Source: Kappaphycus alvarezii
Lineage: Eukaryota; Rhodophyta; Florideophyceae; Gigartinales; Solieriaceae
Length of the DNA stretch: 64,000 nucleotides
Direction: 5' to 3'
NCBI GenBank assembly: GCA_002205965.3
Contig: NADL03000128.1
Span: 166,833-230,832 of the forward strand
The position numbers were made by a program, and so were the translations under genes. Positions 1,220 through 63,714 of this stretch are shown piece by piece; positions within the stretch are counted from its first letter, which is position 1, and every line of letters begins with the position of its first letter. A model generated the notes under the pieces. The model saw nothing but the letters and a program-made list of their open reading frames with translations. It was not told where the DNA came from and did no database searches.

Positions 1220-1254
1220 GGTATTTTACTCTTGGAAGATATAGCCGATAGGGT
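1220..1254 (+). repeat. Micro-element copy a (truncated)
   Basis: It contains GTATTTTACTCTTGGAAG followed by ATATAGCCGATAGGG. This matches the right two-thirds of the micro-element consensus; the GGGGAACG end is missing. It sits at the point where the similarity between the two family A copies breaks off. Confidence 0.6.
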
Positions 1255-2085
1255 TAATGAAGTTAATATTCAGGAAATCAATCCTGCCATGGGATCCCAC
1301 TGCTTGAATGTCTGGGCGCTGACGATGTCCAGCTCATGGTCTGTTGTTTACCACAGGTTGGCGGACGGCTTTGGAAAAATCGGCCACCAATTATCGAACT
1401 TGAGCGTCATGACGAGCAATGCGACATCTGTCGTACTGACAGGTGGTCCCCATGAATATCAACATTGACAGGGCATGAGGGCCTGGGGCAAGGTGTGTCC
1501 GGTGCAAACAACGGGACACGTCTCTTGAATTGAGACCAACCAGAAAACTCCCTGGTAGGGATGTGTGTCCGCAGACCGAGTTTCGGCGTGCAGTAAATCC
1601 AGTCTTTTGCTCCTGGAGAGCAATCTGTGTTGGAAATAGTACATGACTGCCCCTGCGTGGATCAGCTCACCGCCATGCTTCGACTGCTCGAAGCAGTCCA
1701 GGTGAAAACGTTCGACATGTTTGGAGACAACAGCAAGAAATAGCTGACTATGTTTAGCAGGCATCGCCAGCGCAAAATATCGACAAGGCACAGTACCGGC
1801 TCAGGAGATTGCTGGACACATCAAGTAACGAAGCAGCGAAGAGTGGGCATTCAACGGAACTGGAACAATCAGATATACTCCTTCGACGCCCTGCATAAGC
1901 TGAAGAAATCACAACGCAATCCGTAGAAGCACAGAACGAGTCCGGCGCATCGCAGCTAGCTACATATAGGTCGGCGACTCCTCCCGTTCAACCCGGTACA
2001 CCACAAAGAAACGTCATTCTGGAAGATTCTGAGGACCAGACCCAGCAGCAGGCGCCGCAAGCGCCAGCTCGCCAACATTGAGTCA
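1255..2085 (+). pseudogene. Degenerate coding region of unknown origin
   Basis: No frame is intact. Two stretches look like former protein on the plus strand. Around 1291-1455 a frame contains HGIPLLECLGADDVQLMVCC and CDICRTDRW. Around 1911-2081 a frame without ATG reads through a Gln/Thr/Pro-rich tail ending APQAPARQH before a TGA. A 110-codon frame on the minus strand (1459-1791) is probably a shadow. Its position next to family A suggests one broken gene. No function can be assigned. Confidence 0.3.
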
Positions 2086-2189
2086 ATAAATTCATAACAT
2101 GCAGTTAAAATTGGCTACATTCAGTGAGCATCGGTACACAATGGCTAAGTAGAAGTCAAGAAACTCGCCTCCTAAGTGCACGTGTTGGG

Positions 2190-3080
2190 TGCATATGAGG
2201 TCTTGCTCCGAGTGGCAGATGGTACGACCAGCCAGGTATCACATACACTCAGCACATACACTTCGCCTCCATCCTGTCTATGTCTGCCGACGCTCGTCGG
2301 CTGTCGACGTCGCGCCCGCCTTGGATCCAAGCGGCCAGTACCTTTGACCCGCAAGCGCGAAGACGGCATGAATTGGCGGCATTAACTCCTTCGCAATGCT
2401 CTCGCTCGCTTCTGTACGGAAGTCGGCATCGCTGCACTCGTCGAACATACGTTCCGCATCCAGGGTCTAAAATCGTTTATTCATTAGGAGTCCCTTCCAT
2501 TACGAATGGAAATCTACATTCCGGGTGCGCATGGTCTCAGCCGCCCGATTGCCGTCAGTTTATAGCCTCGACGCCTTATCGCCCGCCTGCTAGCCAACCA
2601 ATTTTCGGCTGACCTATCATCCCAATATTTCACAACAAATTCAGAGTCCGAGTCAAGAAAGGCACAGATGCTGTCATTCGCGCGGTCCGACGCGTGATCC
2701 AGCACCCTGAATTTCGCAAGCACGTCTTAATGCAACCGAATGTTGACAACGCATTCAACAGTATTTTTCGTTCACACATTCTCGACGCTGGCATCCAGCA
2801 TGCCCCTGGTCTCGCCTCCTTGATTTATTTATGATACAGAATCGCGTCTTCCCCGTATTCGGCGATTTCACTATCCTCAGCGCAACTGGGACTCAACAGG
2901 GTGACCCCATTGGACCTCTAGTTTTCGCCATCGCCGTTCACCCGTTAGTCCTTTTCTTTTAGGAGCGATCCAGCCCTTCCTTGAACGCTTGGTATACAGA
3001 TGATGGGAATCTAATTGACTCTCGCCCTTCTGCTCTCGCTGCCCTCAGCAACGGGTTGGGCTTCAAGGTCAGAGATAAAT
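2190..3080 (+). pseudogene. RT/RLE LINE relic, rearranged
   Basis: Two pieces of the same LINE type as at 15.3-17.7 kb lie in the wrong order. At 2265-2560 a frame contains VCRRSSAVDVAPALDPSGQ, the Cys/His knuckle region, and then the start of the endonuclease. At 2640-3075 RT sequence follows, with KKGTDAVIRAVRRVIQHPEF, a GTQQGDP-like motif and a TDDGN-like catalytic site, interrupted by stops and frameshifts. Normal order is RT, then knuckle, then endonuclease, so these are two truncated copies side by side or one rearranged copy. Not functional. Confidence 0.65.
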
Positions 3081-3536
3081 TGAAAATAAGATGATCAAAA
3101 TCGTTTTTCCTTTGTGGGTTTGCTCGCTTGATAGCATGGTAACCAACTTTAACGGGTGGATTCAACGTCTTATATAGCTTCACTCCGCGTAAACCTGCCG
3201 AAACTGCGGAACACAAAGTCCCTAACCTTTTGGAGGGTCATTAACTATGTAGAAGAAATGAGATATACAATTACGGACGCAAATGCACGCATACATAAAA
3301 CCTAGCAAACGGATAAATAACTAGGCACCAAAAGAATCGCAGCGAGCTACTTCCCAAGGAGGAGACTATGCACTTGTCGCTTACCTAAAGGACCTTAAAT
3401 TCTCACATTAATAATGCCCTATCTGCACTCAGACGTGTATTCAACCTTGGTGTTAACCATAACACTAAAAAAATGGTAGTCATAACTCTTTACAAGCTCT
3501 ATAGTATGGCAAAGAAGCGTGCGGAGGATATTTAGA
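3081..3536. other. Unassigned stretch
   Basis: No gene is recognised here. The minus-strand 85-codon frame at 2959-3216 overlaps the RT relic and shows no family features. Confidence 0.3.
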
Positions 3537-3588
3537 AATTAGCTACGAATGCGGGTGGCGGGTGGAAATCTGTCGGGCCTGCATCACT

Positions 3589-3643
3589 GGGATAGATCGG
3601 ATATATCTTCCAAGAGTAAATCACCCAAACGTTTTCCCCTCCG
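3589..3643 (-). mobile_element. Micro-element copy b (55 bp)
   Basis: It begins GGGATAGATCGGATATATC and ends AAACGTTTTCCCCTCCG. The paralogous LINE at about 5920 (minus strand) reads GCATCACT joined directly to TGGAGAC. Here exactly this block lies between those two strings. No target-site duplication is visible at this copy, so it is either older or mutated at the edge. Confidence 0.85.
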
Positions 3644-4063
3644 TGGAGACTATACGCAGAACAAGTAACGAAGTCGCGAAGCTCCAGTTGAGGAGAGGAA
3701 CAGCGAATGGAAGCAGCGAAGGAAGCAAGGCGGCGGAAGAAACCCTGGCCGTCGTCGCCCAAGGCGCCATAGATATCAATCTCGACAGGGGAGATGCGCA
3801 TATCGTTTTGGGCGCAGTAAGTGCCGTCATGACGATGATTCTCGCGCTCTGCGAGAGTCGCGACAGTACCTGCGGTAACCGTACTTGGCGAGATGTGGCG
3901 GCGAGCGGAAGGGTGGGCACCAGTTACGCCGACGGCGATATCAGTACTATGAAGCCCATAAGCAGCGGGAATGTAAATGTCCATTCGTAACGCGGGAGCA
4001 TACCGCCCAAAGAGAAGATCCAGGTACTAGCGCAATGCCGAGACAGAGAGCCAGAGCGATATT

Positions 4064-4114
4064 GGGGAACGTTTGGGTGTTTTACTCTTGAAAGGTATAT
4101 CCGATCTATCCCAT
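4064..4114 (+). mobile_element. Micro-element copy c (51 bp), 8-bp TSD
   Basis: It starts GGGGAACGTTTGGGTG and ends CCGATCTATCCCAT. It is flanked by a perfect direct repeat GCGATATT at 4056-4063 and 4115-4122. The paralogous LINE (minus strand of 5593-5615) reads CCAGAGCGACTTTCCACGCA with one copy of the target. The insertion and its 8-bp target duplication are therefore directly demonstrated. This copy best defines the full-length element. Confidence 0.9.
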
Positions 4115-4135
4115 GCGATATTCCACGCAGAGCTA

Positions 4136-4317
4136 TTTAGATTTATGTATACAATTTGGCAATTTCGTTCTTTCGAATGGCCGAATTATGCCACAACCGA
4201 CCATATTTTTCGAATATTAGATCACCCCACATTTTCCCCCTTCTCCAGATAGCAGCCTCCAAAAGCATGGTGCTGTTATAAATTCTCCCGCAGATTTTTG
4301 CCGCCAATCCGGTACAG
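4136..4317. other. Spacer between LINE fragments
   Basis: AT-rich, non-coding sequence of about 180 bp between an inverted LINE fragment and the next LINE copy. No feature is recognised. Confidence 0.4.
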
Positions 4318-6034
4318 TATCCCCGCCACCCGCTCCTACCTTCTGCCCCATCAGGCCATGTTAGGCGTCAAGAACGGCACCGATGCAATAATTCATTCTG
4401 TTCGTCGTCTTTCCCAGAGATCCGAGTTCCCAGATCACGTCTTGGTCCAGATCAATGCTCGCAACGCTTTCAATTGCATCTCCCGCCAGCGCATTCTGGA
4501 AGCCGTACAGACACATGCCCCAGGCCTCGCACGGTGGGTACACTCTTGTTACGATGCTCCTACAGAGCTTGCTTTCGGACCCTACTATGTCCGTAGTTCA
4601 GAGGGCACTCAGCAAGGTGATCCCCTCGGTCCCTTGCTCTTTGCCCTAGCCCTCCATTCCCTCTTGCTATCGTTACAGGAGAAGTTCTCACCTACTCGGA
4701 ACGCTTGGTACGCATATGACGGTAACATTGTTCTTCCTCGGTCCCAAGCCACTGCTGCCATCCGTTTCATCCAGCTTGAAGGGGGTCCAATAGGGTTCCA
4801 GCTCAAACTTGCCAAGACCCAAGTTTGCGGCTTCTCCCCTTCCCACTCCCCTTTGGCACTTCCTTGCCCCTTTTCAACCCCCCCCTGGTTTTATCGTGCT
4901 GGGATCCCCGATTGGCTCGGACGCTTTTGTTTCCCAATTTTTCGCAGGCCGCCAAAACGCAGTTGACCGCATCTTCCCCATCCCTTCGAGACTTGGATGA
5001 TGCTCAATTGGCTTTCCACTTACACCGCTTCTGCGCGAACGCCTCCAAGGTCATGCACTTGCTGCGTACGCTTCCCTCCACTCAATCTGCGGTTCTCGCC
5101 GCTAGCTTCGATCAGAAGCAGAGGGAAGCGTTCCACCAATTGCAGCTGCCCTGTCCAGAGCTAGCCTGGCTCCAAGCCTCTCTCCCATTCTCCATGGGCG
5201 GTCTAGGTCTCCTGCAAACTTCAGATATTACCGAGACTGCATACGCAGTATCTGTAATTAATTCTTTTGGACATATCTCCGACCTGCTTACTCTATCCCA
5301 GGACGGCCACTTCGAAGAGATCCCTCGGTCTGCCATCTCACTCTTATCCTTCCGCCACCCGCAGCTGTCTTCGTCGCTTACAGTCTTCGTCGCTTACAGC
5401 GACGAAGACGGTCCCCGGCGAAAGGCTCCAGTCTGCGATCACAACTGAACTCATGCTATCGAAGTGCGATAGGTTGTTCTCGTCTGCGGCAGACCACGAC
5501 CGAGCAAGGCTCCTCTCCGTGCGCACATCATCCGAATCGTCTGTTTTCTCTTCGCTTCCTCGCCCCAACCGCGGTACGTACATGTCCTCTTCTGCGTGGA
5601 AAGTCGCTCTGGCTCTACGTCCTGGCATCGCGCTTCTCCCGGGATCTACTCGCTGTCCGGTCTGCTCCCGCCGCTCGGCCGACATCGCACCCGTCTTAGA
5701 TCCAAGTGGTCAACACGCGTTGACCTGCAAATAGGGGGAACGTTTGGGTGTTTTACTCTTGAAAGATATATCCGATCAAATACGAAGACGGAATGACTCG
5801 CCGTTATCACATCCTCCGCAACGTTCTTCCCCGCTTATGCAAGGAAGTTGGGATCGTCGCGGTTCCTCCCTTCAACAGGAGCTCCGCGACTTCGTTATCC
5901 GTTTTGCTTTTAGTCTCCAAGTGATGCAGGCGCGACAGGTTTCCACCCGCCGCCCGCCCCCGTAGTTAATTTATGAATACCCCCGCACGCCTCTGTGCGA
6001 CATTGTACAACCCATAAAGATCTATCACCACAGT
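4318..6034 (+). pseudogene. RT/RLE LINE copy 1, truncated and dead
   Basis: The frame opening at about 4298 aligns almost base for base with 15716-17740. RT blocks are visible: LLPHQAMLGVKNGTDAIIH, QINARNAFNCISRQRILEA and GTQQGDPLGPLLFALALH. The catalytic YADDG box reads YAYDG, so one aspartate is lost. The polypeptide continues through a thumb region with MGGLGLLQTSDITE and the knuckle CPVCSRRSADIAP with DPSGQHALTC. About 346 bp of endonuclease is deleted between two TCGTCGC repeats. A micro-element interrupts it at 5734. The 3' end is AATAAAGATCTA-like followed by CACCACAG, shared with the other copy. Several frameshifts are present. Confidence 0.9.
5734..5776 (+). mobile_element. Micro-element copy d (43 bp), 6-bp TSD
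   Basis: It starts GGGGGAACGTTTGGGTG and ends ATATATCCGAT. It is flanked by CAAATA at 5728-5733 and 5777-5782. The paralog at about 17124-17140 reads TGCAAATACGAAGACGG, with a single CAAATA. The insertion creates an in-frame TAG in the LINE frame. It is 8 bp shorter than copy c at the CCGATC end. Confidence 0.9.
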
Positions 6035-6166
6035 ATCTGCGGTGACACTTTTCACAACCGGGTGTGCAGTAACTTTCAAATTTGAGTGCGTACTTATACG
6101 ACAGCCGCGGAGATTACTACTGTAGCTCTACGGAATTTGACTGGATCCATCTAGGTAGTACTTTTG
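6035..6166. other. Junction between LINE and DIRS-like element
   Basis: About 130 bp of non-coding sequence. No target duplication is evident, as expected for tyrosine-recombinase elements. Confidence 0.4.
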
Positions 6167-6437
6167 GTGAAATGATTGGAAAATGATGGGTGAATATGAT
6201 AAAGGGGCTTCGACGTGGCTGTGATCCACAACTGGAAGCAAGTCACGCTGTCACGTCTGCATCTCGGTTGCATTTGCATCCGCTGGACTGTAAGCCACTC
6301 GAGATATGGCCACGTTGGCAGCTTACCGTTGCTCAAGGACTTGATGTGCGATCAGAACCCGTCGGACAGGTCTATATAACCGAAAACTTGGAAACCTTTG
6401 GCACAACTTCTGGTCCCTCAAGTCGTCGCTTGTTCTC
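6167..6437 (+). repeat. Left direct repeat of DIRS-like element
   Basis: It runs from about GGTGAAATGATTGG to CGTCGCTTGTTCTC and aligns with 10377-10648 with only a handful of differences. The short frames in it, on both strands, are duplicated by the repeat and need not be genes. It carries a TATA-like box near its 3' end. Confidence 0.85.
6371..6380 (+). promoter_or_regulatory. TATA-like box in left repeat
   Basis: TCTATATAAC lies about 125 bp upstream of the gag-like ATG at 6504 and is repeated in the right copy. Its place inside the terminal repeat is where an element promoter would be expected. Inferred from sequence only. Confidence 0.45.
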
Positions 6438-6503
6438 AACCTTCAAACCAGCTCCGGGCGAATCCTCGTCTAGGCCGACATTCACAAACACGTCAACAAC
6501 ACC

Positions 6504-7343
6504 ATGACTAATGACTCCTCCTCCTCCTCTGCACCATCCTCTCAGTCTCGCATCGTCACTCTCGAGAACAAGGTTGCCGGCATTGAAGGCCAGCTCTCCA
6601 AAATCGTCAACCTTCGTCGCTCGAACTCAGGGAACGCAGCCGCCCCTACACCAGCTGCGACTGCACGTGCCGCCGCGGACCCGTCGGACCCGCCTGCCGA
6701 CAAATCTCCATCTGCTGCGGAAGCCTTTCAGTTGGGAAGTCTACAGTTTTCATTACCAACCCCTTCCGCCGAACACGTCGCTGACACATTTGCAGCGCGA
6801 AGAGCTTACGCAGCTACGGGGAAATTCAACAAGTTTGGGAAACCGGCAACTACCGCGCCATTCCCAGCCAAGAGGTTCATTCCGGAACCAGAAGGGCTAT
6901 TCGGAAGGATCAAGTCCGCAGATCTCCGGGACGGTTGGGAAGCAGAAGTCTTGTGGAACATCGTTGACACCTGTGAAAACGCCCTCACCACCGCGCACAA
7001 GGTCACAGAAGCTCTCGCCGCCAAAGACTTTGACGCCGCCACCGAGGCCTTCGCAGTGCTCAACCACTTACTTCAAGCATCCTACGACCGGGTACTGGAA
7101 CGTGTGGACTTCTTCGCCGACGCTCTCGAATCAGACAGAACGGAGGCTATTCTCCTACGGAAATATCTCCGTGAAGACGACTACCCCTACTCCTCGGAAC
7201 TGTATCATTCAACCAAACAGAAGTTCGCTGAGCTCCGCTCTCAAGCATACGCCAAGGAGTTCAATAAGCAGCAAGCTGCTTCGGGAGGACGCAGACAGGG
7301 CCGCGGACAACGAAGTTCTGAGCATAAGCCCACTCGCAAGTAA
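6504..7343 (+). CDS. gag-like ORF1 of DIRS-like element
   Basis: 279 codons from ATG to TAA. The N terminus is Ser-rich with a short heptad-like stretch (ENKVAGIEGQLSKIV), then an Ala/Pro-rich linker. A folded-looking alpha-rich core follows (about residues 95-255), and the tail is basic (GGRRQGRGQRSSEHKPTRK). This is the usual profile and position of ORF1 in DIRS elements, which is thought to package element RNA. No zinc knuckle is present. RT starts just after it in another frame. Confidence 0.7.
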   Translation: MTNDSSSSSAPSSQSRIVTLENKVAGIEGQLSKIVNLRRSNSGNAAAPTPAATARAAADPSDPPADKSPSAAEAFQLGSLQFSLPTPSAEHVADTFAARRAYAATGKFNKFGKPATTAPFPAKRFIPEPEGLFGRIKSADLRDGWEAEVLWNIVDTCENALTTAHKVTEALAAKDFDAATEAFAVLNHLLQASYDRVLERVDFFADALESDRTEAILLRKYLREDDYPYSSELYHSTKQKFAELRSQAYAKEFNKQQAASGGRRQGRGQRSSEHKPTRK

Positions 7344-7375
7344 AACGGTTGCTGTCGCGACCTTTTTCTTTTGGT

Positions 7376-8740
7376 ATGTCGCACGTCCTCTGGCACAATA
7401 CCAAATGTGCTGCTCCCTTTTGGTCCAATACCCTCCATGCCTCCGAATTCCTACTCCGAGCCCTCCGCTACGGGGTCTACGAGGCTCCCATCAAAACATC
7501 TCTTCACCATACTCAATTCTCTCTCCCTCAAATCATTATTGCCCCAGAAGGCAGGGACTTATTCGACTCAGCCATCGCCGACGCTCTACATCGGAGAACT
7601 TACGAAGAAATTTCACCAGACACTGCACGAAGGCTACACCGCGAGGGTTGCCCAATATCCAACGCGTTTGTAGCCGTGTCAGGAGACAAGCAGCGGCTGG
7701 TTATCAACCTATCTCGACAATCAACGCTGTTCCGCGACATGCCTGTGAAGATGGAAACTCTCGAAGGGTTCGCTCTGGAACTCAAACAAGCGGACCTCAT
7801 GTTCTCTTTCGACATCGCCAAAGGATATCATCATTTCCGCCTCCACCCAAAGATACGGAATTGGTTTCTATTCAAGGTCGACAATCGATACTTCCGATGT
7901 ATTGCCCTCCCTTTCGGCTGGAAGCTCTCAACCGCCTACCTCGTCAAGTTCATGCGCCCTATGGTTCGTTACATACGCCTCCACCTCCGACTACGCATCT
8001 ACCCTTACATGGACGACTTTCTCATCGCTGTAAGGAGTCGTACCCGACTACGAAAGGCCAAGCAACAAATCGACCAGTTGCTACAGGCCTGTGGGCTGTT
8101 GCGGAAAGAAGACAAGGGAAATTGGACGGGAACTCGCGGTATCGAGCACCTAAGGTTCGTTATCGATACCTCTCGAATGGTTTTTGGAATTACGGCTCGA
8201 CGGATGGACAAACTGCGCGGTATTGCACAGCAACTGTTGCGCCAAGGCCGCCGAAACAAACGTCTCGTCAACGTCCAGCTACTACGCCATTTCACAGGGG
8301 TAGCGATTTCATGCTCGCTCGCTATGCCGCTCGCCCGGTTCTACACCCGGTCACTGTACGACTCCATGCAGAACCGACCAACGAAGTCAGGAAAACGGGT
8401 TCGACTGCTCCACGCTGGAATGAGGGACCTCAGGTTTTGGCGGGATCTCGCCAAGCACCCACCCGAACGGCTAATGTCAACTCCATCCCCTACCATGGCT
8501 CTCTACTCCGACGCGTCCACATCGATCGGTCAGAGGGGTACTGTAGGGTCGGATCTTCGACCAGGGGCCCAAGGGACTTGGGAAGCACGGGGACTATGGG
8601 ACCCGGCACTTCGCGTGAAACCAATCACGTTCCTGGAATTACGCGCGGTTACGGACAACATTCGGTCCTTCGCAACAATGCTACGCTCAGGACACATCTC
8701 AAAATCTGGGAGGACAACCAAGCGGTCGTGGCAATCTTGA
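7376..8740 (+). CDS. Reverse transcriptase and RNase H (DIRS type)
   Basis: The open frame runs upstream to about 7349; the first ATG is at 7376. RT motifs are clear: QRLVINLSRQS, MFSFDIAKGYHHFRLHP (motif A), LPFGWKLSTAYLVK and YPYMDDFLIAV (catalytic box). RNase H begins with MALYSDASTSIG and continues through TFLELRAVTDNIRSF. The frame then breaks. The third RNase H acidic motif (IWEDNQAVVAIL) lies in another frame at about 8704-8740. The product would copy element RNA into DNA. The order RT then RNase H then recombinase, and the HLHP context, place it in DIRS rather than gypsy. Confidence 0.85.
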   Translation: MSHVLWHNTKCAAPFWSNTLHASEFLLRALRYGVYEAPIKTSLHHTQFSLPQIIIAPEGRDLFDSAIADALHRRTYEEISPDTARRLHREGCPISNAFVAVSGDKQRLVINLSRQSTLFRDMPVKMETLEGFALELKQADLMFSFDIAKGYHHFRLHPKIRNWFLFKVDNRYFRCIALPFGWKLSTAYLVKFMRPMVRYIRLHLRLRIYPYMDDFLIAVRSRTRLRKAKQQIDQLLQACGLLRKEDKGNWTGTRGIEHLRFVIDTSRMVFGITARRMDKLRGIAQQLLRQGRRNKRLVNVQLLRHFTGVAISCSLAMPLARFYTRSLYDSMQNRPTKSGKRVRLLHAGMRDLRFWRDLAKHPPERLMSTPSPTMALYSDASTSIGQRGTVGSDLRPGAQGTWEARGLWDPALRVKPITFLELRAVTDNIRSFATMLRSGHISKSGRTTKRSWQS

Positions 8741-9300
8741 ATGCCATGACCACCAAATCCAGACCTCTCATGCAAGAGCTCCGAGTGCTACACCGCTTGC
8801 TGGACCGACTTGGAATCTCAATCGAGTCTCATTATCTCCCTCCGCCGTGAATCAATTTGCAGACCGGTTGTCCAGGCTCCACACGCTCGACGATTGGAGA
8901 ATCAACACGAAGGCAATCCAACCCCTTCTCGAATCGTTTCCACAACCATCGACCGTTTCGCCGACAGCACCAACAAGGTATGCAGCCGATTCAACAGCGA
9001 ATTCGCATCTCCTGGCTCCCTCGGGATCAACGCACTCAGTCAGGATTGGAGTACGGACATAAACTTCTGGAATCCGCCGCTCAAGCTACTGCCACTCGTA
9101 GTCAAGAAAATCTGTCACGAACAGGCCAAGGGAATTCTCGTCACACCGTACTGGCCCGCGCACCAATGGTTTACTCGCTTGCTCCACATGGCACAACCGC
9201 GGGTTTTACGCAGAAGACCTTTACCTACCCCCTGTTTGGGCCGCCGCAAATGCCGTCGCCACCGTGGAAACTCGCCGTTGGAAAATCTAACTGACGACGC
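8700..9300 (+). pseudogene. RNase H end and linker domain, frameshifted
   Basis: Three frames carry consecutive parts. WEDNQAVVAILNAMTT with IESHYLP ends at 8850. VNQFADRLSRLHTLDDWRIN reads from 8845. Then TIDRFADSTNKVCSRFNS, SLGINALSQDW, NFWNPPLKLLPLV and VTPYWPAHQWFTRLLHMA read to about 9190. These are the conserved blocks of the domain that follows RNase H in DIRS elements. At least three frame changes are needed, so this copy cannot make a full Pol protein without correction or shifting. Confidence 0.75.
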
Positions 9301-9419
9301 GGCCTCGCTGCCGCTGGCCGTCACGTTACAACAATCGGTGCTGGCTGCCGCAGGCATGGGTCATACTTCAGGAGGGACTACGATTGCACAGTTGATGCAC
9401 AAAGCTAGAGCCCGAACAC

Positions 9420-10322
9420 GTGGCGTTCGAACGAAATCTTGTGGAAGAAATGGTTGCAATTCTGCTCAGAAGACAAAATTGACCCACTCGGGGATCAGAA
9501 AGCTCTTTACTTCGATACCTTGGCTGGCTGTTCAATCAAGATAAGGTCAGTGCTTCGTCAGTCCGTAACTACATTTCCAACGTCGTTACCGCACACTCAC
9601 GCATCGGCCGGACTTTGACCTATACCCCTTTAATCCAACTCGCTATCTCCGCATATCAACAAGCAGACCGGGAACGGAAATTGATCAGTGATCCAACACT
9701 GGCCTCCGAACGTCGCGCGCTACCCAGCTCTGTGGCTCGCCAAGTGTTTACAGCTGCGCTTGCCACAACCGATAAGATATTTCTCCGAAATGCAACTGCT
9801 GTATTGGTCAGCTACGTGTTCTTCGAACGAGGTGAAGCTGGTGTGTCGTTACTTCTCAGCAATATTTCGGTGTCTCCAAATTCCGTGGATATCGCTATTG
9901 CACTACGGAAGAATCAACAAAGAGTGGCTCACACCCTTTCGTATCGTCGGAATCCCAATTTCGAGACGAGTTTGATTGACCTCGTTGCTCGATATGACGT
10001 TATTCGCAGAAGAAACCGCACAACCAGCAACTATTATTGGGCCATCCCTTGGACCAAACTGTCTACAAGTGCCAGAACAATTACAGTTTGGCTCCGCTCC
10101 TGCGTAGAAGAACTCATGGTGGCTCCTCCTCCTCAAGTGTCATGGTCCTCGCACTCGCTGCGCATGGAGGCAGCCTCGGAATGTGCTGCCATTGGTGTTC
10201 AAGAGTATGGAATTTTGATTTGGGGTGATTGGACAGCCAGCCGCACGTTCCGAGAAGCTGATTTGGATGCTCGTGTTTTACAAACGGAGGATTCGCTCTT
10301 TTTCTTCGGTCACTTGTTGTAA
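9420..10322 (+). pseudogene. Tyrosine recombinase (DIRS type)
   Basis: The N-terminal core-binding part starts in one frame (TWRSNEILWKKWLQFCSED, about 9419) and continues after a shift as FRYLGWLFNQDKVSASSVRN. It then reads openly from 9615 to a TAA at 10322. The catalytic domain shows the first arginine (FFERGEAGVSLLL) and the H-x-x-R pair in WSSHSLRMEAA. A GDW block corresponds to the GGW/H position. The nucleophilic tyrosine is not evident where expected (the sequence reads TASRTFREADL), which suggests decay. In the family this enzyme integrates circular cDNA without target duplication. Confidence 0.8.
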
Positions 10323-10376
10323 CCTCACTCTCGAATGCTCCCTACGGTCATTTAATTTTCTCAAATTGTTTAATTC

Positions 10377-10648
10377 GGTGGAAGGATTGGAAAATGATGG
10401 GTGAATATGATAAAGGGGCTTCGACGTGGCTGTGATCCACAACTGGAAGCAAGTCACGCTGTCACGTCTGCATCTCGGTTGCATTTGCATCCGCCGGACT
10501 GTAAGCCACTCGAGATATGGCCACGTTGGCAGCTTACCGTTGCTCAAGGACTTGATGTGCGATCAGAACCCGTCGGACAGGTCTATATAACCGACAACTT
10601 GGAAACCTTTGGCACAACTTCTGGTCCCTCAAGTCGTCGCTTGTTCTC
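10377..10648 (+). repeat. Right direct repeat of DIRS-like element
   Basis: It repeats 6167-6437, beginning GGTGGAAGGATTGG and ending TTGTTCTC. Similarity stops abruptly at 10648/10649, where a C/T-rich stretch starts. It includes the same TATA-like box. Confidence 0.85.
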
Positions 10649-12180: not shown

Positions 12181-12224
12181 ATCGGATATACCTCCCAAGA
12201 GTAAAACACGAAACGTTCCCCCTA
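12181..12224 (-). mobile_element. Micro-element copy e (44 bp), 7-bp TSD
   Basis: It begins ATCGGATATACCTCCC and ends ACGAAACGTTCCCCCTA. It is flanked by TGAAAAG at 12174-12180 and 12225-12231. The GGGATAG end present in copies b, c and o is missing, as in copy d. A short frame now reads straight through it and should not be taken as a gene. Confidence 0.85.
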
Positions 12225-12231
12225 TGAAAAG

Positions 12232-53194: not shown

Positions 53195-53577
53195 ATATAA
53201 AATTGCATTTCGGTAATATGTTTTAAGTTATCTCTGCGCGTAACATTTCTTCCAATGACCCACTGCGGGGCGCCTTCAGAAACTAGGTGGGTAATGCGGA
53301 CCGGATTTCCATTGTCAGACTCAGACGTGAGGGTAATAGATCCAAGTATGCGACGAGCTGGACTAGCATGCTTCCCTTTCCCGTATTGCCAATGGGTATG
53401 ACCTAACAATGACTTTGGAATATCGTCAAGTCTGGGGTTAGACGGTAGGCCAAAGTGATCAACCAAGAGATTGAGCTCGACTTGCCCATATGCAGAATAG
53501 AGTGCACCATCCTCTACTTCTAGACTGAGTTCAATCGAAGGCAAGGTACTAGCTAAAGAGCCCATGAGATTGGCCAT
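53143..53577 (-). pseudogene. Protease region of copia-like element 1
   Basis: Contains ELSLEVEDGALYSAYGQVEL (protease-like loop, with D-G-A), HTHWQYGKGKHASPARRILG, LVSEGAPQWVIGRNVTRRDN and LKHITEMQFYIW. The same blocks are seen in the AT-rich relic. It is joined to the integrase by a short overlap in another frame. Confidence 0.65.
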
Positions 53578-55159: not shown

Positions 55160-57060
55160 AGCATCATGGCTCAGGCCGTAGGCAAGAAGAATACTTTTAC
55201 TCTTGAGCATCGGCCTTCGAGTGACAACGGCATTTACTGGCTCTCAACACGCAACATGAAAAGGCCCCAACCCACCTGGGAACTACCTACTCCGGTTATT
55301 GTATCCTCTGCAGCAGGCCCCAGCCGCAACTCCAGACTGTTGCGAACTTGCTGGCCCATCTGCGCACGACGCACACGCCACAATCCTAACACGGTCTGCC
55401 CCGCCGCCATGAGATCCACAAACTGCAGAAAAGTCTAGCTCAAATCAGATACTGGTACTGTGCCTGTCATCACAAATATCTCGGCTCCAAAGTACTTGGT
55501 CCGGACCCGCAAGGACTCTACTCGTTCTCGTAGGTCCGCTGCCCTCAGTGTACCGTAGATGCAAGGCCAAGGCAGTACGCCCCGTTGCACAAGTTGCAGT
55601 TGCAGGCGGATGAGCCCCGCCAGTCTTCGGTCCCGTTCCACGCCCGATCGCCGACGATCAACCTCCGCGACCTGCACACACGACTGGACGCGCGTCAGAT
55701 TAGCAACCCTCACCAGGGCACGCTCCGCTCCATGCGCAACCCCTGCCCTGCCATGAGGACATCTTTACGACCTACATTCCTGTGTTGTATCATATCCCCA
55801 CACGATTCCGATCAGCACTGAGTGACTCCCTGTCGGTCGCCATGCATGACGCTGCGTGGGCTTGCGCACACGGACATAATAATGCGGAAGAGAAGCTCTC
55901 TAAAGTTTTTCTTCTTCCTTCAGTGATGCTTTCCAATACATCACCTTCCTCCGGTGCTACCGGTTCGAACCTCGAAACGCAAGTCCAACCGACTAGCGAC
56001 TTAGTAAGAGAAACCGCTCGAATTGGGAATGAAGAACAAATCCAAACCTTATGGAGAACGCACTTCACTAAGGGACCTCCCGAACAGAACGAACTTTAAC
56101 GCCCGGGAACGAAACAGCCAACATCCGTTGTACCATGAGACTAGCCCGCGAAGGAGCATTTGGAAAGCTGCACAGGCTTTAGGATCTCTAGGGTGTTACC
56201 GGCAACTAAATCGGTTTCTGACGCCCTCCGAGCTAAACATCTTCAATCTTCCTGGAGGATGAGGAACACCCCCAACCGCCTTCCGCACCCCCTGACATCT
56301 CAGCGATCACAAAGGATGAGGTTTTGAGAGCAGTTCGCTTTTCAAACCTGGTTCAGACCCGAGACCCGGACTTCGCCTTTACGCCGAAGAGCTTCTACGG
56401 ACACCCACATCTTTGTCGCACGGGAAATCTTGGATTCATTAACAGAACCGCCGAACGCCCTGGCTTCCGGAACGGCTCCTACTGTCCTCGCCTTTTGGAT
56501 CGCTGGAGCCCCACTAACACTTTGCGAAGAAAGACATGACTCCCACCCTATTGCAGTAAGAGAGACTTTGCGATGGTTAATTAGTAGCTGCCTTGCTACA
56601 GAGTCAATGAAAAGGCCGCTACTTACTTCCAGCCTCTTCAGGTTGGTATCACTACAAAGTCGGATATGATGCAGTACTTCACGGTGTTCGACGCATCGTG
56701 ACAAGTTCGGTACATGCTCTGAATATGCGCTCTTGACGGTCGACATGAAGTATGCGTTCAACTGTGCAGCGTGCTTCCTTTTTAATGCAGTCCAGACCTC
56801 TTTCCCCAGTTGCTTCCTTGGGTACTGTATTGCTACAACAACGACCAGTTCCTCTCTGCACGGGATTCGAGACTACACGGAGTGTTGTGGGTACCCAGCA
56901 AGAAGACCCGCTCAGTGGATTTCTTTTAGCTTTTGTATCCCCTTATCGCCCTAAACATCAAAGAGCTACTGTCGGATCCCGACGAGGACAAAGGGTTACC
57001 ACGCTGCTTTTGGAGATTTGGTATCACGAGACTACATTGTAGCCAACAAGAGGGTATATG
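55160..57060 (+). pseudogene. LINE with C2H2 finger and RT (second type)
   Basis: Near the 5' end, in one frame, YCILCSRPQPQLQTVANLL followed by AHLRTTHTP gives a C-x2-C...H-x4-H finger. Then VFLLPSVMLSNTSP, KAAQALGSLGCYRQLNRFL and the RT core follow: LQVGITTKSDMMQYF, LLTVDMKYAFNC (motif A) and SVVGTQQEDPLSGFLLAF (the QQGDP block with G to E). After RVTTLLLEIW the expected LDD region is degraded. Frames change many times. This order (fingers, then RT, no early endonuclease) differs from the RLE family at 3-17 kb. Confidence 0.65.
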
Positions 57061-57779
57061 TGAAATTGACCAATAATTTATCTCTATCTCGGTGTCCTAC
57101 AGGGGGAAATTTGGTGATGTGTAAGAGCGCCTAAAGTCTCAGCTTTATTAAATATGAAATACTGTATGTGGCCGAATGGATCTAGTAGAGGGGAAATTTT
57201 GGGGTGTTTTTAATGCATGAAATAATGGTCAGCTTTTCCATGGGGAGTCGTGATGGTAAAGGCTTACAATGTAAGAAATGCAGGAAGCGTCAACGCTACA
57301 CTACGTGATGCTGAATTGTGGAGCTATTTTTATTGGCACCACAATTTAAATTTATTGTGAATCATCAGGAATTTTTATCTATTTTAGAATGGCACCATTT
57401 TATGCTGAATGCAGTGTGTGATAATTTTATGTTCTACAGTTAGGTTTTTGTATTATATAGGCTATAATTCTTGTATTTATGCTACCAACAAAATATTATC
57501 TGGATGAGTGATTACCTAGAAAATACTGCAATGATTATTGCTAAGCCTGAATCATGTTACTAAAATTACTGTACGGCTTACCTCATTTTTGTAGCAGGTT
57601 CACTCTGGTGTAGATAATAAGTAGCCTAGGCTGTTAAAATATTTCTACATCATCGGGTCATCGTAATATTCCTCTCGATCAGATTCTAAGTCCAATTGTG
57701 GCATTTATTTATTTATTCAAGTTGGAAGCATTTATTTTCTTGGATCTACAATGCATTATTTTCAATACACTCAAGGTAA
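57061..57779. other. AT-rich insert within LINE
   Basis: About 720 bp of AT-rich, non-coding DNA between two parts of the same LINE. It holds two short strings (57102-57125 and 57189-57220) faintly like the micro-element's GGGGAA...TTTTA part, too weak to call. Confidence 0.35.
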
Positions 57780-58297
57780 TCGATGTTCTGTCTTCTCCTG
57801 GGGTCAAACGCCGTAGTCTCCATCTAGCAGTCTCGAAATGCAAATTATGGTGACCCACTGTCCCCTCCGCGTTGGTTCAGTCCGCATACCCCTCCGATAT
57901 GCCGCAGGAATACAGTGCTGGAACTTCTGTTTTGAACGCGCCAATCTGATCCCAAACGTTCATGAAGCAATACTTCCAGGACCATGTACACTCCCTTGAG
58001 CCTTTAATTAACGTTGTCCTGGAAATCGAGGACGCACATGCTTCATTCCAACTACTACGCAGCCAATTAGGGGTTTGTAAAGTGAGATATTTTGCAAGTT
58101 GTGGCGCCCTTCTTTACGCGGAAAGGGGCCGAATATTTCGACAGCTTAATCGAAAACTGCTGCCGCACTTTAGCGGGTGGAATGCTAGACAACTGTATAT
58201 TCAAGGAGCTGCAACTGCCCATTAAGCCACTACAGGAGAAGCAGCCGTCATGTCCACTGCGGCCTTCTCGGTGGCTGGCCTGAAGGTAGCATTTCTT
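57780..58297 (+). pseudogene. C2H2 LINE, RT thumb part
   Basis: Reads SKCKLWWPTVP, TSVLNAPI, then FMKQYFQDHVHSLEPLINVV, IEDAHASFQLLRSQLGVCKV, RYFASCG and, after a shift, KGAEYFDSLIENCCRTLAGG. This matches the post-catalytic region of LINE RTs (KCEVWWP, LGxPIGS, DxxxAFxLLRxCxGxxK, FDxxI). It ends where the copia LTR begins. Confidence 0.55.
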
Positions 58298-58756
58298 TGA
58301 TGACTGGGAATGTGTTACTGATTCTGTTATGGTGGTATATCAGTTGTACCCAAAACTTTACTCAGACTAGATTTAAATACCCTCACGTTGGGCAAAACAC
58401 GAGAGTTGTGGCACAGAAAAACCACCTAACCTGAGCTATTCACGTCGACCCATACCGCCACGAACGTGGTAGGAGACGGTGCTGGCCTCTGAAGATCTCC
58501 ACAACTCAACCTGATTCCCTCTCCGGTAAATCTTGTCCACAGCCTCGAAATATCCATCTCAACCCGGACCTGGCAACGGCTGAGACCTGCTGGTTTCGGA
58601 CTCGGACAAGGAATGCCATCAGAAAGACTGAGACTCATCAACACTGATATGCATTACAACATAAAAATAACTATCAAAACACAGAATAACTATCAAAACA
58701 GAGAATAGCAGTCAAAGTACAGATGCGAGAGAGATTCGCACAAACTGGTGTACTCA
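58298..58756 (-). repeat. 3' LTR of copia element 2
   Basis: About 458 bp, nearly identical to 63128-63581, from TGATGACTGGGAATG to GTGTACTCA. The two LTRs differ at about two dozen positions including small indels, so the insertion is not very recent. Confidence 0.9.
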
Positions 58757-58759
58757 ATA

Positions 58760-59535
58760 TTCCCTCTTGCGGCTCGATCGATCTATTCGTCAGACGCATT
58801 GGTGTCTCGAATTTGGAGACTGTCACGGTTGTTGTCGAACATCAACTTATGCAGAGCGTTCGTAAGAATGTCCGTAGTCATCTTACTTGTGGCTCAGTAT
58901 GTCACGCGAATGATGCCTTCATCCACCTTCTCTTTGACAAAATTGTGCGTAATAGCAACGTGCTTTGCGTGCCTGACACCTTCGTCAGACCAAACAACTG
59001 CACCCTGATTGTCCTCGCGTACTTCAGTGGCGCAAGTATGCTTGCAGTCCAAATCTGAGAGAAGCTGCCTGATCTATATCACGGACTTCGTGCATTCACG
59101 TAATGCGCAGAACTCGGCCTCAGGGGTAGAGAGGGCAACAGATCCCTGCTTGAGAGTCCTCCATGAGACGGGTGAGTTTCCGATCAGAAGCAGAGTACCA
59201 GTGGTTCACTTCCTGTCTGCATAATCACCTGCCCAATTTGAATCACAGTAATCCTTGAGATTGGTCTCTTCCTTCCTCTCAAACCGCAGTCCGAACGCCT
59301 TAGTCCCTTGCAAATACCGCAAAATCCTCTTCAATGCGACCCAATGTACTTGGAGAGGTACTGAAGTAAAACGACAAAGAATGTAAACGGCAGCTGATGT
59401 GTCCGGACGAGTCCTCTTGGAGACAAACAGGAGACAACCAATTAGCTCCTGGTATTGTCCTCAATCAACAGTAGCTCCATTCGCTGATGAAATCTCACGC
59501 ATCGCACCTTCACTCATTGGAGTAGAGACTGGCTT
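58760..59535 (-). pseudogene. copia RNase H (element 2)
   Basis: Minus-strand blocks: LGCLLFVSKRTRPDTSAAVY; LKRILRYLQGTKAFGLRFER; DYCDSNWAGDYADRK (first acidic residue); LSTPEAEFCALRECTKSVI (second); VREDNQGAVVW (third); HAKHVAITHNFVKEKVDEG. The TSKMTTDILTNALHK end matches TKxxxADxLTKxLxK. A stop after ADRK and one after IRVTY break the frame. It would remove RNA from the RNA-DNA hybrid. Confidence 0.8.
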
Positions 59536-60240
59536 TCATGACGACATACTGAAACGTTCGAGTACTTGTGTCACGTAGTGCGCCTGAGAGAGCCAGGCCC
59601 AGGAAGAATCTCTTCTGAACATAGTGCCTAAGAACATGCCAAGTGCGCCGATGTCCTTCACGTCGAGGTGCTTCCTAGTTTCCCTCTTAGCCTGAGACAC
59701 ATCTCTATCGTTTTGCCCAATGAGGACAATGTCATCAACGTACAGCAGGAGCCATACCGATCCTCTGCGGTATAAATAGTGGTCTGAGCGTGTTTGAGTG
59801 AAACCCAAAGTCTTCATTACGGCTCTGCACTTCTCGTACCATAGCCTTGGGGACTGCTTTAGGCCGTAGAGTCCCCGCCGAAGTTTCAGAGTTTCATTCT
59901 ATTTGCATAGATTGAGTCTCTCAGGTGCTTTGATGTGCAGTTCTGCGTTCAATGCACCATGGTAGACAGCTGTACGTACATCCATTTGCTCGATGACGTA
60001 ATCCCTCTTGATTGCAACAGTAAGGCATGTCTTTACAGTGGAGAAATCAACCACTGTGGCAAAAGTGTCGTGAACGTCTCCCTGGAGGTACCCCTTGGCA
60101 ACTAGTCGAGCCTTATATCTCATGACTCTACCCTCAACATCTCTCTTACGCAAGAATAAATCTCGTAGGTAGTTCGCGTACTCCCTCAGGCCGACGCAAC
60201 ACTTACCATGTTCCATGACTACAGAGTGAGGCAAGATCTG
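59536..60240 (-). pseudogene. copia RT (element 2)
   Basis: In two frames: RYKARLVAKGYLQGDVHDTF; DYVIEQMDVRTAVYHGALNA (motif A, with FLxG changed to VYHG); KAPERLNLCK; then KTLGFTQTRSDHYLYRRGS and VWLLLYVDDIVLIGQNDRDV (catalytic YVDD intact); LDVKDIGALGMFLGTMFRRD; LSQAHYVTQVLERFSM. The region between (about 59820-59900) is broken. Copies element RNA into DNA in the family. Confidence 0.85.
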
Positions 60241-60313
60241 AGTCGATAGCCTCCTGCCACGTCATGGCATCATCCTGACTGAGCGCCTGCTTCATCGTAG
60301 TCGGTTCTGGATC

Positions 60314-60967
60314 CTAGGGATTGGATGAATTATGAGTTGAGACTACTGTCATTACGGCTGCAGGAGAGTAGTACTCTGGTGCCTTCCGTTCTCTGCGTGA
60401 ATAACGAGCCCCCTGAGCGTCGTCCTCGTCGAGGGGGAGGTGAGAGAGCAAGTTATGTACCGTATCAGGAGTTAAATCAGCCTCCTCTTCATTTTCTTCA
60501 TCAGCTGTGCCTGCTTCGTCAGGAGTAGATCCGAATGTGGTGTCATCCCCAGCTGCCAATCCTTGACTGCCGGTGCCAGTGCCAGTATTTGGGCTTGGTG
60601 TCTCCTCCTCTTCGGCATTTAAAAGCGTGGGAGCTTTCTCTTCCCTGTTCCAGTCTCGTGCAGGGAACTCCCTTTCAACAAACGTGATGTCCCTTGCCAG
60701 TACCGCCCTGTTTCGTGACGGGATCCACAGCTTGTACTGGCTGCTCTCATAACAAGCAACCAAAATACCAATCTCTGACTTGGGGTCCAGCTTCTTTCGA
60801 AGATTCTTCGGCACGTGATACCATCCGAGATACCCGAAGAACCTCAGGTATCTTGCATCCGGTACTTCCCCTGACATAGCTTCGTGAGAGGATTTAGTCT
60901 TATCCTGTGAACTCGGAAAAAAGTTCCTCAACGTTGCGGAGTTGACCACGGCTTCCGCCAAAAACAC
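60314..60967 (-). pseudogene. Integrase C terminus and linker (element 2)
   Basis: 217 codons. The start continues the integrase: FLAEAVVNSATLRNFFPSSQ, KTKSSHEAMSGEVPDARYLR and FFGYLGWYHVPKNLRKKLDP correspond to the TPxExxxGxxPxxxxLRxFGC and VPKxxRxKLDPK blocks. NRAVLARDITFVEREFPARD follows. The rest is a low-complexity acidic linker. It is split from the integrase core by one stop. Confidence 0.8.
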
Positions 60968-60976
60968 TCGAGAGAG

Positions 60977-61827
60977 CTAAGCGTGCTCCAACATATACCT
61001 AGCCGTCTCAACAATGGTCCTGTTGGTTCTCTCTGCTAAGCTGTTAGAGTTCGGAGAGTATGGTGGTGGCCAAAAATGCTCGATTCCATTCTCGTCGAGG
61101 TAATCCTTCATAGCGACATACTCCGTCCCATTGTCACTCCGCAGACACTTGATGATGCAGTCGAATTTATTTTCTAGCCATGCTTTAAAGAGCTTAAATT
61201 TCTCAAGCACTTGGCTCTTTCTCAAGATTGGTACTACAACCACGTACCCGGAGAAGTCGTCGACAAAGGTCACGAAATACTTTGCTCTAGAGAAGGATTC
61301 TACGGATATTGGCCCGCAAACATCGGAATGAATATCGGACCCCCTCTGCTTTGATCTGTGCGTATTAGTACGCAGAGTATGCCTCGTCTGCTTGCCGCGC
61401 ATGCAGCTTGGACAAACGTCTGATTTCGGGTTTTTCTGTCAAATCCTTTTACCATCCTCCCTAGTCTCAATTTCCTGATTGATTCCGTGTTTGCGTGGCC
61501 GAGCCGACTGTGCCATAGCCCCATGTCCGACCCGCAATCAGCATCTCTCGAACCCACGGCTGAGTAGACAGCTTCATCCCTTGGCAAGGGATATAAGCTG
61601 ACGTGGTAGACCCCTCCGATGGCCTTACCGACAAACTGCGTGATGCCATTCTTCATGCCACTGCAATTGTCCCTTCTGAAATTGACTCGGAACCCGTCCA
61701 TGCATAGACCTGCACATGACAGTAGGTTTTGATGGAGACCTGGGACAAGAAGAACGACTCGAATCAAAAGAGTTCTTCTGTACTCATCTTCTGGAGCAAT
61801 GTACATTCTTGCCCTGAGTTCAGTCAC
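60977..61827 (-). pseudogene. GAG-pre-integrase and integrase core (element 2)
   Basis: In two frames: LLVPGLHQNLLSCAGLCMDG; DMGLWHSRLGHANTESIRKL (H-H zinc ligands); then, shifted, CPSCMRGKQTRH (C-C ligands); SDVCGPISVESFSRAKYFVT and FVDDFSGYV (first Asp); KCLRSDNGTEYVAMKDYL (second Asp); LAERTNRTIVETARYMLEHA (Glu). The D-D-E set is intact; the protein is broken by one frameshift and one stop. Inserts element cDNA into host DNA in the family. Confidence 0.85.
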
Positions 61828-62194
61828 CTTGATGTGTGGCGGACAGTACCCTTCCGTCCCCGAGCACTATGCTGAGCCTCTCAATTTCCACTATTCCTTC
61901 CAACCAATCCGCATCTGATACCATGTGGTTGGATGCTCCGGAGTCCAGCAAGAACGTGTGCATGTCGCAGTCACGTGTAGTGGCCCTCCCTGCTCCCAAG
62001 AAGATTGCTTCATTTCCGCAGTTGCGGTCGGATTCATCTACTGCCCATTCAATATCTGTGCCGCAAGTGGGCCGACAGTCAGATCCGGATCTGACCTCAG
62101 TGCTTTGCGCAGTGAGAAGCCGGGCAGAGTGAGCTGCCCCGTCCTGAATTATCCCTCTTGTCGATCTCGTCGACGAAATTGACTTTTCTGCCAC
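61820..62194 (-). pseudogene. Protease and zinc knuckle region (element 2)
   Basis: The frame has MHTFLLDSGASNHMVSDADW, the DSGAS active-site loop of copia proteases, and LSIVLGDGRVLSATHQGD. Just upstream, in another frame, CFGCNRIVHLKRNCPNKRA is a CxxCxxxxHxxxxC knuckle (about 62205-62255). Cuts the polyprotein in the family. Confidence 0.8.
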
Positions 62195-62230
62195 CTGCCC
62201 TCTTGTTCGGGCAGTTCCTTTTGAGGTGAA

Positions 62231-62948
62231 CTATTCTGTTGCAGCCGAAGCATCTGCGCCTTTCCGGTCTCCCGCCTCCTTGGCTTGCTTGTCGACCTCC
62301 CCTCTACTCCTGAAATCAGCCGTCAGGGTGTGACCATGGTCCTCACCGCGGAGTTTGCTTCCTCCTCCACGCATCAGTTGCTCCTCATACTCTTGCAGGA
62401 GTGTGGATATCACCGTTTCACAATTAAGAGATCCTGCCCTAGTCTGCAGCGATGCAATGACTGGTCCAAACGGGGACGACTTCTTGTCTCCGAAAGCTGC
62501 TAAAAGCATAGCAACTTGAAGGTCTTCTGCGACCTTACTGTCCTTTGCCTCCAATCGGTTGGAGGTCTGCTCAAAGGCGTCCACAAAGTCTTTTATGGAC
62601 TCCCGCCGTAGCTCATCGCCGAAAGCCTTGTCTGGAGCTGTACCTTGGTGGCTGTTTACACACAGCGTACCTGTCCTGAAGCTTCTTCCACATTACGTAC
62701 GTATTTCCTTTCACTGCCAGGCACATTTGCAGAGGGCGATTACCGAGTCCTTGAATCAAGACTGCCCTAGCAGTAGCAACATCCCTGCGATCCTCCGCAC
62801 TTATCTCTCCTTCCTGACTGAGAACGTCTTTCTGGATCATGCGAAGCACCGAATTTGCCTCCAGTGCTGCTTAAGTCCGCGCACACCACAGCTGGAAATC
62901 CTTGGCAGGACGGCCGTGGAACTTGTACACCTTCTTGTATTGTTCCAT
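62231..62948 (-). pseudogene. gag (element 2)
   Basis: ATG at 62948 gives MEQYKKVYKFHGRPAKDFQL with WCART, then a stop. It resumes as LRMIQKDVLSQEGEISAEDR, GLGNRPLQMCLAVKGNTYVM, WKKLQDRY and, shifted, KDFVDAFEQTSNRLEAK-like sequence, VAEDLQVAMLLAAFGDKKSS and LLQEYEEQLM. This is the UBN2/copia gag layout (WxxLxxxY; LLxxLPxxY-like). Packages element RNA in the family. Confidence 0.8.
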
Positions 62949-63108
62949 AACAGAACAAAATGAAAGAAAACACAAGTCCTTAAAACTGTCGACGAAGGTC
63001 AGACAGTCACCTACCAGTTTTTAGTCAGACAGGGAGATAGAGGAGGGAAGAAGAAAAGGGTGAAGTGACGGTTGGGGCGGGGAAGGGAGTCGTTTAGGTC
63101 GATGGGTA

Positions 63109-63124
63109 GTCTGGGTCCATAACC
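63109..63124 (-). promoter_or_regulatory. Primer binding site (initiator tRNA-Met half)
   Basis: On the minus strand GGTTATGGACCCAGAC lies three bases after the 5' LTR. It matches the type of site known for Drosophila copia, which pairs with the anticodon arm of initiator methionine tRNA rather than the tRNA 3' end. Recognised from memory of that motif. Confidence 0.65.
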
Positions 63125-63127
63125 TTT

Positions 63128-63581
63128 TGATGACTGGGAATGGGTTACTGATTCTGTTATGGTGGTATACCAGTTGTACCCAACACTTTACTCAGACTAG
63201 ATTTAAATACCCTCACGTTGGGCAAAACACGAGAGTTGTGGCACAGAAAAACCACCTAACCTGAGCTATTCACGTCGACCCATACCGCCACGAACGTGGT
63301 AGGAGACGGTGCTGGCCTCTGAAGATCTCCACAACTCAACCTGATTCCCTCTCCGGTAAATCTTGTCCACAGCCTCGAAATATCCATCTCAATCCGGACC
63401 TGGCAACGGCTGAGACCTTCTGGTTTCGGACTCGGACAAGGGATGCCTTCAGAAAGACTGAGAATCATCAACACTGATATACATTACAATAAAATAACTA
63501 TCAAAACACAATAACTATCAAAACAGAGAATAGCAGTCAAAATACAGATGCGAGAGATATTCGCACAAACTGATGTACTCG
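63128..63581 (-). repeat. 5' LTR of copia element 2
   Basis: About 453 bp matching 58298-58756. The + strand starts TGATGACTGGGAATG and ends TGATGTACTCG. The terminal CA of the partner reads CG here. Confidence 0.9.
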
Positions 63582-63662
63582 ACAATTTTAGGGAGCGTAG
63601 TTCCTTCCCCATTGCCGTGTCGGTGTACCGTTTTTAAGTCGATTGTGGTTGTCGGGAAAACC

Positions 63663-63714
63663 ATGGGATAGATCGGATATATCTTCCAAAAGTAAAACAC
63701 CTAAACGTTCCCCC
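63663..63714 (-). mobile_element. Micro-element copy o (full length)
   Basis: ATGGGATAGATCGGATATA, then TCTTCCAAAAGTAAAACAC and CTAAACGTTCCCCC. One of the best-preserved copies. Flanks AAAACC and TACAGG do not match. Confidence 0.85.

Follow-up and report, generated by a model that had tools for sequence, protein, structure and literature searches.

A short string recurs throughout a 64,000-nucleotide stretch of the Kappaphycus alvarezii genome (contig NADL03000128.1), which we refer to as the window. The question is whether this string is a very small non-autonomous transposon with two ends of its own, as the original prediction held, or a piece of something longer. We conclude with high confidence that it is the 3′-terminal 43–51 nt, seen on the cDNA strand, of a LINE-type non-LTR retrotransposon, and that the short copies, or stubs, are 5′-truncated copies of that element.

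Copies of the string in the window

A one-sequence profile search at E<0.1 identifies 14 copies in the window, in agreement with the at least 13 copies of a dispersed element that had been predicted. GGGGAACGTTTGGGTG has 8 matches in the window at up to three mismatches, against a shuffle mean of 0.32; TTTTACTCTTGGAAG has 14 matches against a mean of 2.84. For GATCTATCCCAT there are 12 matches against 5.05 expected; 1 of 100 shuffles reaches 12, and this segment is therefore only weakly above chance. The string and its dispersion through the window are real. All copies are short except one of 129 bp (13 of 14), and the stubs themselves have no coding capacity, as predicted. A scan of viral contigs, from which records of this genome were possibly excluded, gave no match to the string. 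The copies and one coding remnant of their LINE family are listed below, with flanking repeats classed by eye as clear, shorter or imperfect.

1215–1249, plus strand: LINE 3′-end piece (model 13–42), directly followed by LINE coding sequence at 1244–1616 (read on the minus strand)
3588–3640, minus strand: stub of ~53 bp, cleanly inserted into a copy of another LINE with no duplication; the paralogous empty site lies at ~5913–5923
4064–4114, plus strand: stub of 51 bp, clear flanking repeat GCGATATT (4056–4063 and 4115–4122); comparable uninserted site near 5593–5607
5734–5776, plus strand: stub of 43 bp, clear flanking repeat CAAATA; paralogous empty site at ~17127
12182–12224, minus strand: stub of 43 bp, clear flanking repeat TCTTTTCA
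31572–31617, plus strand: diverged stub within an insert of ~60 bp, clear flanking repeat GGACTATG
32487–32521, minus strand: diverged stub lying within a LINE ORF remnant (32286–32597), flanking GTCGT of the shorter or imperfect class
43912–43960, minus strand: diverged stub of ~49 bp, flanking AAAGC of the shorter or imperfect class
44469–44511, plus strand: diverged stub of 43 bp, imperfect 8-bp flanking repeat ATGAAAAA / ATGGAAAA
46779–46824, plus strand: stub with only a weak flanking repeat, TGCTT
47714–47805, minus strand: two stubs head to tail (47714–47760 and 47769–47805) inside one GTCGTT repeat of the shorter or imperfect class
48373–48432, plus strand: stub in an insert, clear flanking repeat AGTAGCAAGA
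55737–58277, plus strand: coding remnant of this LINE family, found by tblastn with the proteins of loci L023 and L013; resumes at 63731–63986 past a copia-like insertion
63585–63713, minus strand: 129-bp LINE 3′-end copy adjoining a copia-like element; no flanking repeat seen

Flanking repeats and insertion sites

Many of the copies bear the marks of insertion that the original prediction had described. Summed over 13 insertion sites in the window, with the adjacent pair at 47.7 kb entered as one site, the longest flanking repeats are matched by only 2 of 20,000 re-pairings. Across the genome, flanking repeats of at least 5 bp occur at 53 of 109 independent copies, compared to 6.9% for mispaired flanks. 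By length, these are 22 of 35 copies up to 60 bp, 24 of 44 copies of 61–150 bp and 7 of 30 copies above 150 bp, the low value for the last class arising partly because their far end falls outside the 660-bp model. The duplications vary in size, mostly between 5 and 13 bp. Uninserted paralogous sequence can be compared for three window copies (3588, 4064 and 5734); the copy at 3588 has no duplication. The GGGTTA repeat at 1215 is not valid evidence, since the copy there runs straight on into LINE coding sequence: it is part of an internally deleted LINE copy and not a separate stub. The pair at 47714–47805, whose GTCGTT repeat was read by eye and missed by the automatic repeat test, represents either a nested insertion or a template jump.

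Stubs and longer copies share a target preference. The base at –1 is G in 58% of cases and A prevails at –5 to –2, and this is the same in both length classes. The microhomology at the junctions averages 1.66 bases, a value somewhat inflated by the choice of the longest repeats, compared to 0.345 by chance and to 0.75 for the highest of 2000 random placements.

The string belongs to the 3′ end of a LINE

The GGGG edge is constant across genome copies, whereas the opposite edge differs from copy to copy. It lies between 43 and over 659 bp from the GGGG edge, reaching into the LINE 3′ UTR and the C-terminal ORF, and the copies grade into LINE coding sequence without a break. The predicted full form ending in GATCTATCCCAT thus does not hold, as in the genome the variable side usually extends further; of the edges and duplications expected genome-wide, repeats of at least 5 bp and one sharp edge are found, but not a second sharp edge. 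The fixed 3′ edge, the graded opposite edge, the flanking repeats, the target preference, the microhomology and the internal variants that stubs share with longer copies are hallmarks of target-primed reverse transcription and 5′ truncation, and the window stubs would be insertions in which copying stopped almost at once.

The copies at loci L003 and L023 have 655 bp in common, with 96.8% identity, and continue into an ORF that ends ...SNAACLMAGLKVAF-stop, some 130 bp short of the LINE 3′ end. Related C-terminal proteins can be aligned with the LINE C-terminus. A Cys/His stretch is conserved there, and an R-P-D motif was recognized by eye in the protein alignment. The C-terminus has no sequence match in Pfam or the PDB, and its structure model has a mean pLDDT of 42.4, too low for use. 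Upstream, a coding piece of the parent LINE in L023 matches stretches of reverse transcriptase (RT) from other window LINEs. Among these LINEs, one has a match to solved R2 retrotransposon proteins (E=1.5e-6); the parent LINE's own RT piece gave no match when searched directly. Read here from partial copies, the parent LINE possibly carries RT, a zinc motif and a C-terminal nuclease in that order. Two database searches gave proteins from unnamed or environmental sources, with one transcriptome entry in each, and 9 of 22 relatives of another window LINE carry plant names.

The LINE is numerous in this genome. Searches with 42-mers at up to three mismatches give 2584 matches at model positions 1–42, 3135 at 44–85, 978 at 170–211 and 491 at 481–522, and none for the reversed-pattern controls. 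That 1–42 gives fewer matches than 44–85 runs counter to a survival curve; matches at 1–42 were probably lost through subfamily variants at positions 7 and 32.

Lengths of the copies and alternative origins

In the 109-copy set, which is not random because most loci were chosen for holding the string, 29 copies end at 40–55 bp and 19 at 56–100 bp. This cluster, together with the short copies that make up 13 of 14 in the window, resembles a distinct class more than a smooth tail. In a sample of 27 copies selected without regard to length, 7 are at most 60 bp long, compared to 4.0 expected at a constant stop rate, which is not significant (P=0.09). Set against a flat distribution over 43–150 bp, the same sample gives 7 of 19 (P=0.028). 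The stop rate in the sampled copies is about 0.9% per base.

Such a class would be expected if the LINE machinery used a discrete 43–51 nt RNA from the LINE 3′ end as a whole template and this RNA formed a family of its own, and the full target duplications on stubs would also agree with this. We nevertheless consider a separate family of this kind very improbable. The length-blind sample has no clear stub excess, the ends are scattered across 43–55 and do not fall at one point, and the predicted stub fold is no better than those of shuffled sequences. Nor does any base separate stubs from long copies at the two variable positions compared: at 7 and 32 both bases are present in short and in long copies. 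Counting against plain truncation, G at position 32 is less frequent among short copies (6 of 36) than among long ones (27 of 86), though a G copy served as bait in the first search. Equally hard to credit is processing of the LINE 3′ tail to an RNA of ~43–51 nt preferred by the LINE enzyme, with near-minimal retroposons as a regular product. Were the short-RNA reading true, this would to our knowledge be the shortest retroposon class. A SINE derived from a small RNA was rejected as unsupported, with no Rfam match at the gathering score and no tRNA (ARAGORN, bacterial code) in the window. A spliced-leader or intron-like origin was dropped on reading alone, because the copies sit within transposon sequence and merge gradually into the LINE ORF.

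Early truncation might itself be patterned, with RNA hairpins stopping the reverse transcriptase at preferred points. Predicted hairpins do lie near the groups of ends at 43–55 and 105–120, but circular shifts reach the observed value in 33 of 157 cases for 3′ arms and 51 of 157 for all pairing, which is not significant, and the folds are no stabler than shuffles. We therefore regard this refinement of the truncation account as unlikely. The minimal DNA transposon (MITE) originally proposed drew on flanking repeats and on a 4–5 bp imperfect terminal inverted repeat, GGGGA / TCCC. That inverted repeat is incidental, because its TCCC side is internal to the LINE, and most genome copies run past it. 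DNA transposons have one target-duplication size per family, whereas the repeats here range from 5 to 13 bp. This explanation, to which we attach practically no probability, was rejected on the variation of the second edge. The string is a piece of a single longer repeat, the LINE 3′ end, not matched to a named family, and one edge differs between copies; in substance, this is what the original prediction had named as speaking against it.

Proposed mechanism

As judged from the sequence, we propose that the LINE moves by means of its own RT and nuclease. The LINE protein, with a nuclease of presumed type, would nick DNA after an A-rich stretch, usually one that ends in G. The LINE RNA would end in ...AACGUUCCCC, without poly-A, and the free DNA 3′ end may prime reverse transcription at its CCCC end. 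The reverse transcriptase would then tend to fall off early, at about 0.9% per base, so that very short copies are common. The end of the cDNA would pair over one to four matching bases with the cut target and be sealed, leaving a target duplication of mostly 5–13 bp.

Comparison with known elements

In place of a candidate smallest transposon there is thus a LINE family with copies down to 40–60 bp. Stubs of this size could easily be missed by repeat annotation, yet they enter other elements and leave target duplications, and they form a large natural set of junctions for the study of how LINE cDNA starts and ends. The family is apparently undescribed; the mechanism is known, and many of the stubs are remarkably short. 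We found no description of this element in the titles and abstract openings of the open-licence literature, which is no proof that it is unpublished.

Some SINEs have a LINE-like 3′ end and are short, non-coding and flanked by target duplications. The stubs resemble them in all these respects, but have no small-RNA head in the window and grade unbroken into LINE coding sequence.

In Drosophila R1 and R2, 5′-truncated insertions have a fixed 3′ junction and variable 5′ truncation, with microhomologies of 1–5 bases or extra bases at the 5′ junctions, and truncated R1 copies have target duplications (PMC2718515). The LINE stubs in the window are alike in their fixed 3′ junction, variable 5′ truncation, junction microhomology and target duplications. 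While R1 and R2, as described there, insert mainly at one site in the 28S rRNA gene, the present LINE is dispersed and many of its copies are 40–60 bp (PMC2718515). For R2 and R2-like elements of the German cockroach, truncated copies have been ascribed to early termination of reverse transcription, as we propose here; the truncated copies analysed in that work lie in rRNA genes (PMC7650587). Utopia is a non-LTR retrotransposon with a C-terminal restriction-like endonuclease (PMC4640811). The present LINE has no Pfam or PDB match at its C-terminus and no fixed target gene was seen; with its Cys/His stretch and R-P-D motif it may share with Utopia an arrangement of RT, zinc motif and C-terminal nuclease.

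A LINE 3′ terminus as the source of the dispersed string

The 43–55 bp string that the original prediction took for a micro-transposon with target-site duplications is the cDNA strand of a LINE 3′ terminus. The genome comprises 336,021,096 bases in 884 contigs, and seven further copies from it (loci L002–L008) are identical at the fixed GGGG edge, from which positions and lengths are counted, and differ in how far they continue: about 52, 69, 87, 96, 111 and 118 bp, and more than 655 bp in L003. L003 and another locus, L023, have 655 bp in common at 96.8% identity. Longer copies pass a stop codon, some 130 bp in from the edge, and then enter an ORF ending ...SNAACLMAGLKVAF*. L013 holds a longer coding copy of a relative; among the 8000 best candidates scored from the protein collection, 11 are relatives of the protein of that copy, and Cys, His and R-P-D positions are conserved in them. 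The parent is therefore a LINE-type retrotransposon, and its RNA would end ...AACGUUCCCC. In L064 the copy, once extended, proved truncated at about 1.4 kb. No family or structure matches the parent’s reverse transcriptase (RT) piece directly; the piece does match other LINEs of the window, and one of these matches solved R2 proteins. Sequence searches for the nuclease type of the parent were negative and the structure model was unusable.

We counted 42-mers with at most 3 mismatches across the whole genome, each with a reversed-pattern control. There are 2584 matches to positions 1–42, 3135 to 44–85, 978 to 170–211 and 491 to 481–522, and none to any of the four controls. The lower count at 1–42 than at 44–85 probably reflects subfamily differences at positions 7 and 32, and the series therefore describes decay into the element rather than an exact survival curve.

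Insertions in the window

A profile search of the window returns 14 string copies at E<0.1. Of the three sub-strings named originally, two are far above chance and the third weakly so (window search, shuffle controls). Direct repeats flank many sites, and their summed longest lengths at 13 insertion sites are reached in 2 of 20,000 re-pairings. Three insertions of short copies (stubs) can be read against paralogous window sequence:

5734–5776, stub; empty site CAAATA at about 17.1 kb
4064–4114, stub; GCGATATT duplicated, uninserted site near 5.6 kb comparable, not identical
3588–3640, stub; clean insertion without duplication

The claimed insertion events are sound, because the flanking repeats and these three comparisons both support them. 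Further copies are:

1215–1249, adjoining LINE coding sequence at 1244–1616; an internally deleted LINE
32487–32521, nested within a LINE ORF remnant
47714–47805, a pair inside one 6-bp repeat (read by eye); may be a nested insertion or a template jump
63585–63713, 129 bp long

Other elements and loci

Stubs have landed in copies of a second LINE family, the RT of which gives a match to solved R2 retrotransposon proteins (E=1.5e-6). Within L023:3605-4345, a stub with an 11-bp flanking repeat, CCTTTAATAAG, interrupts the part of a LINE of the parent’s kind that encodes the RT, with in-frame read-through (...GERLGVLLLEGISDLSHGFPF...). Locus L012 (G000:C565) has three tandem units of ~2.3 kb, each with two LINE 3′-end copies. 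A coding remnant of the stub-making family is split (58250 | 63731) by the Ty1/copia-like element. The ORFs at 52328–53577 are probably part of a transposon, because one of the 21 relatives of the first has an rve integrase domain. The element at 6163–10648 is presumably DIRS-like.

12880–15126 (−), 4298–5982 (+), 15298–17683 (+), second LINE family
6163–6437 and 10374–10648, direct repeats (98%) of the 6163–10648 element
6504–7343, its gag-like ORF
7349–8740, its RT ORF (PF00078)
9615–10322, its ORF with no Pfam match
58296–63580 (−), Ty1/copia-like element; repeats 58296–58595 and 63126–63425 (98%), rve integrase piece
52328–53577 (−), two overlapping ORFs with no Pfam match
125–570 and 32598–33044, dispersed repeat, 90–95% identical, containing 22-bp tandem units with palindrome TCCTCATATGAGGA

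Stubs and long copies

Are stubs a separate class? Among 27 independent copies chosen solely by an exact 42-mer (from 30 loci, with 3 duplicate insertions removed), 7 end at or before 60 bp and 2 extend past 300 bp. If the stop rate is constant at 0.0089 per base, the value fitted to the longer copies, 4.0 are expected against the 7 observed (P=0.09); with a flat distribution over 43–150 bp as the comparison, 7/19 gives P=0.028. A second set was drawn from 179 profile rows in the window and further loci (L001 and L015, both duplicates, and L064 left out): after removal of 57 rows not anchored at the GGGG edge and 13 duplicates, 109 independent copies remain. This set is not random, because most loci were chosen for containing the string. 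In this biased set 29 copies end at 40–55 bp and 19 at 56–100 bp. Mean divergence over the first 42 bp is 8.4% in stubs versus 4.6% in long copies. Predicted RNA hairpins do not account for the ends, as 33 of 157 shifted placements do equally well. A reverse transcriptase that releases early and often would leave short copies; we favour this explanation, which does not fully account for stub abundance in the window.

One mechanism probably produces stubs and long copies. Flanking repeats of at least 5 bp occur at 53 of the 109 copies, compared with 6.9% of mispaired flanks: 22/35 up to 60 bp, 24/44 at 61–150 bp and 7/30 above 150 bp (window copies, 6/12). In both length classes A predominates at −5 to −2, and G is the base before the GGGG edge in 58%. 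At positions 7 and 32 both alternative bases are present in stubs and in long copies, in differing proportions (36 short and 86 long rows, duplicates retained). At the truncated junction, target and element have on average 1.66 bases in common, against 0.345 in random placements (44 copies with repeats of at least 6 bp), the former somewhat inflated because the longest repeats were picked. Taken together, these features resemble those of R1 and R2 insertions that are truncated, whose 5′ junctions are marked by microhomology and additional bases (PMC2718515).
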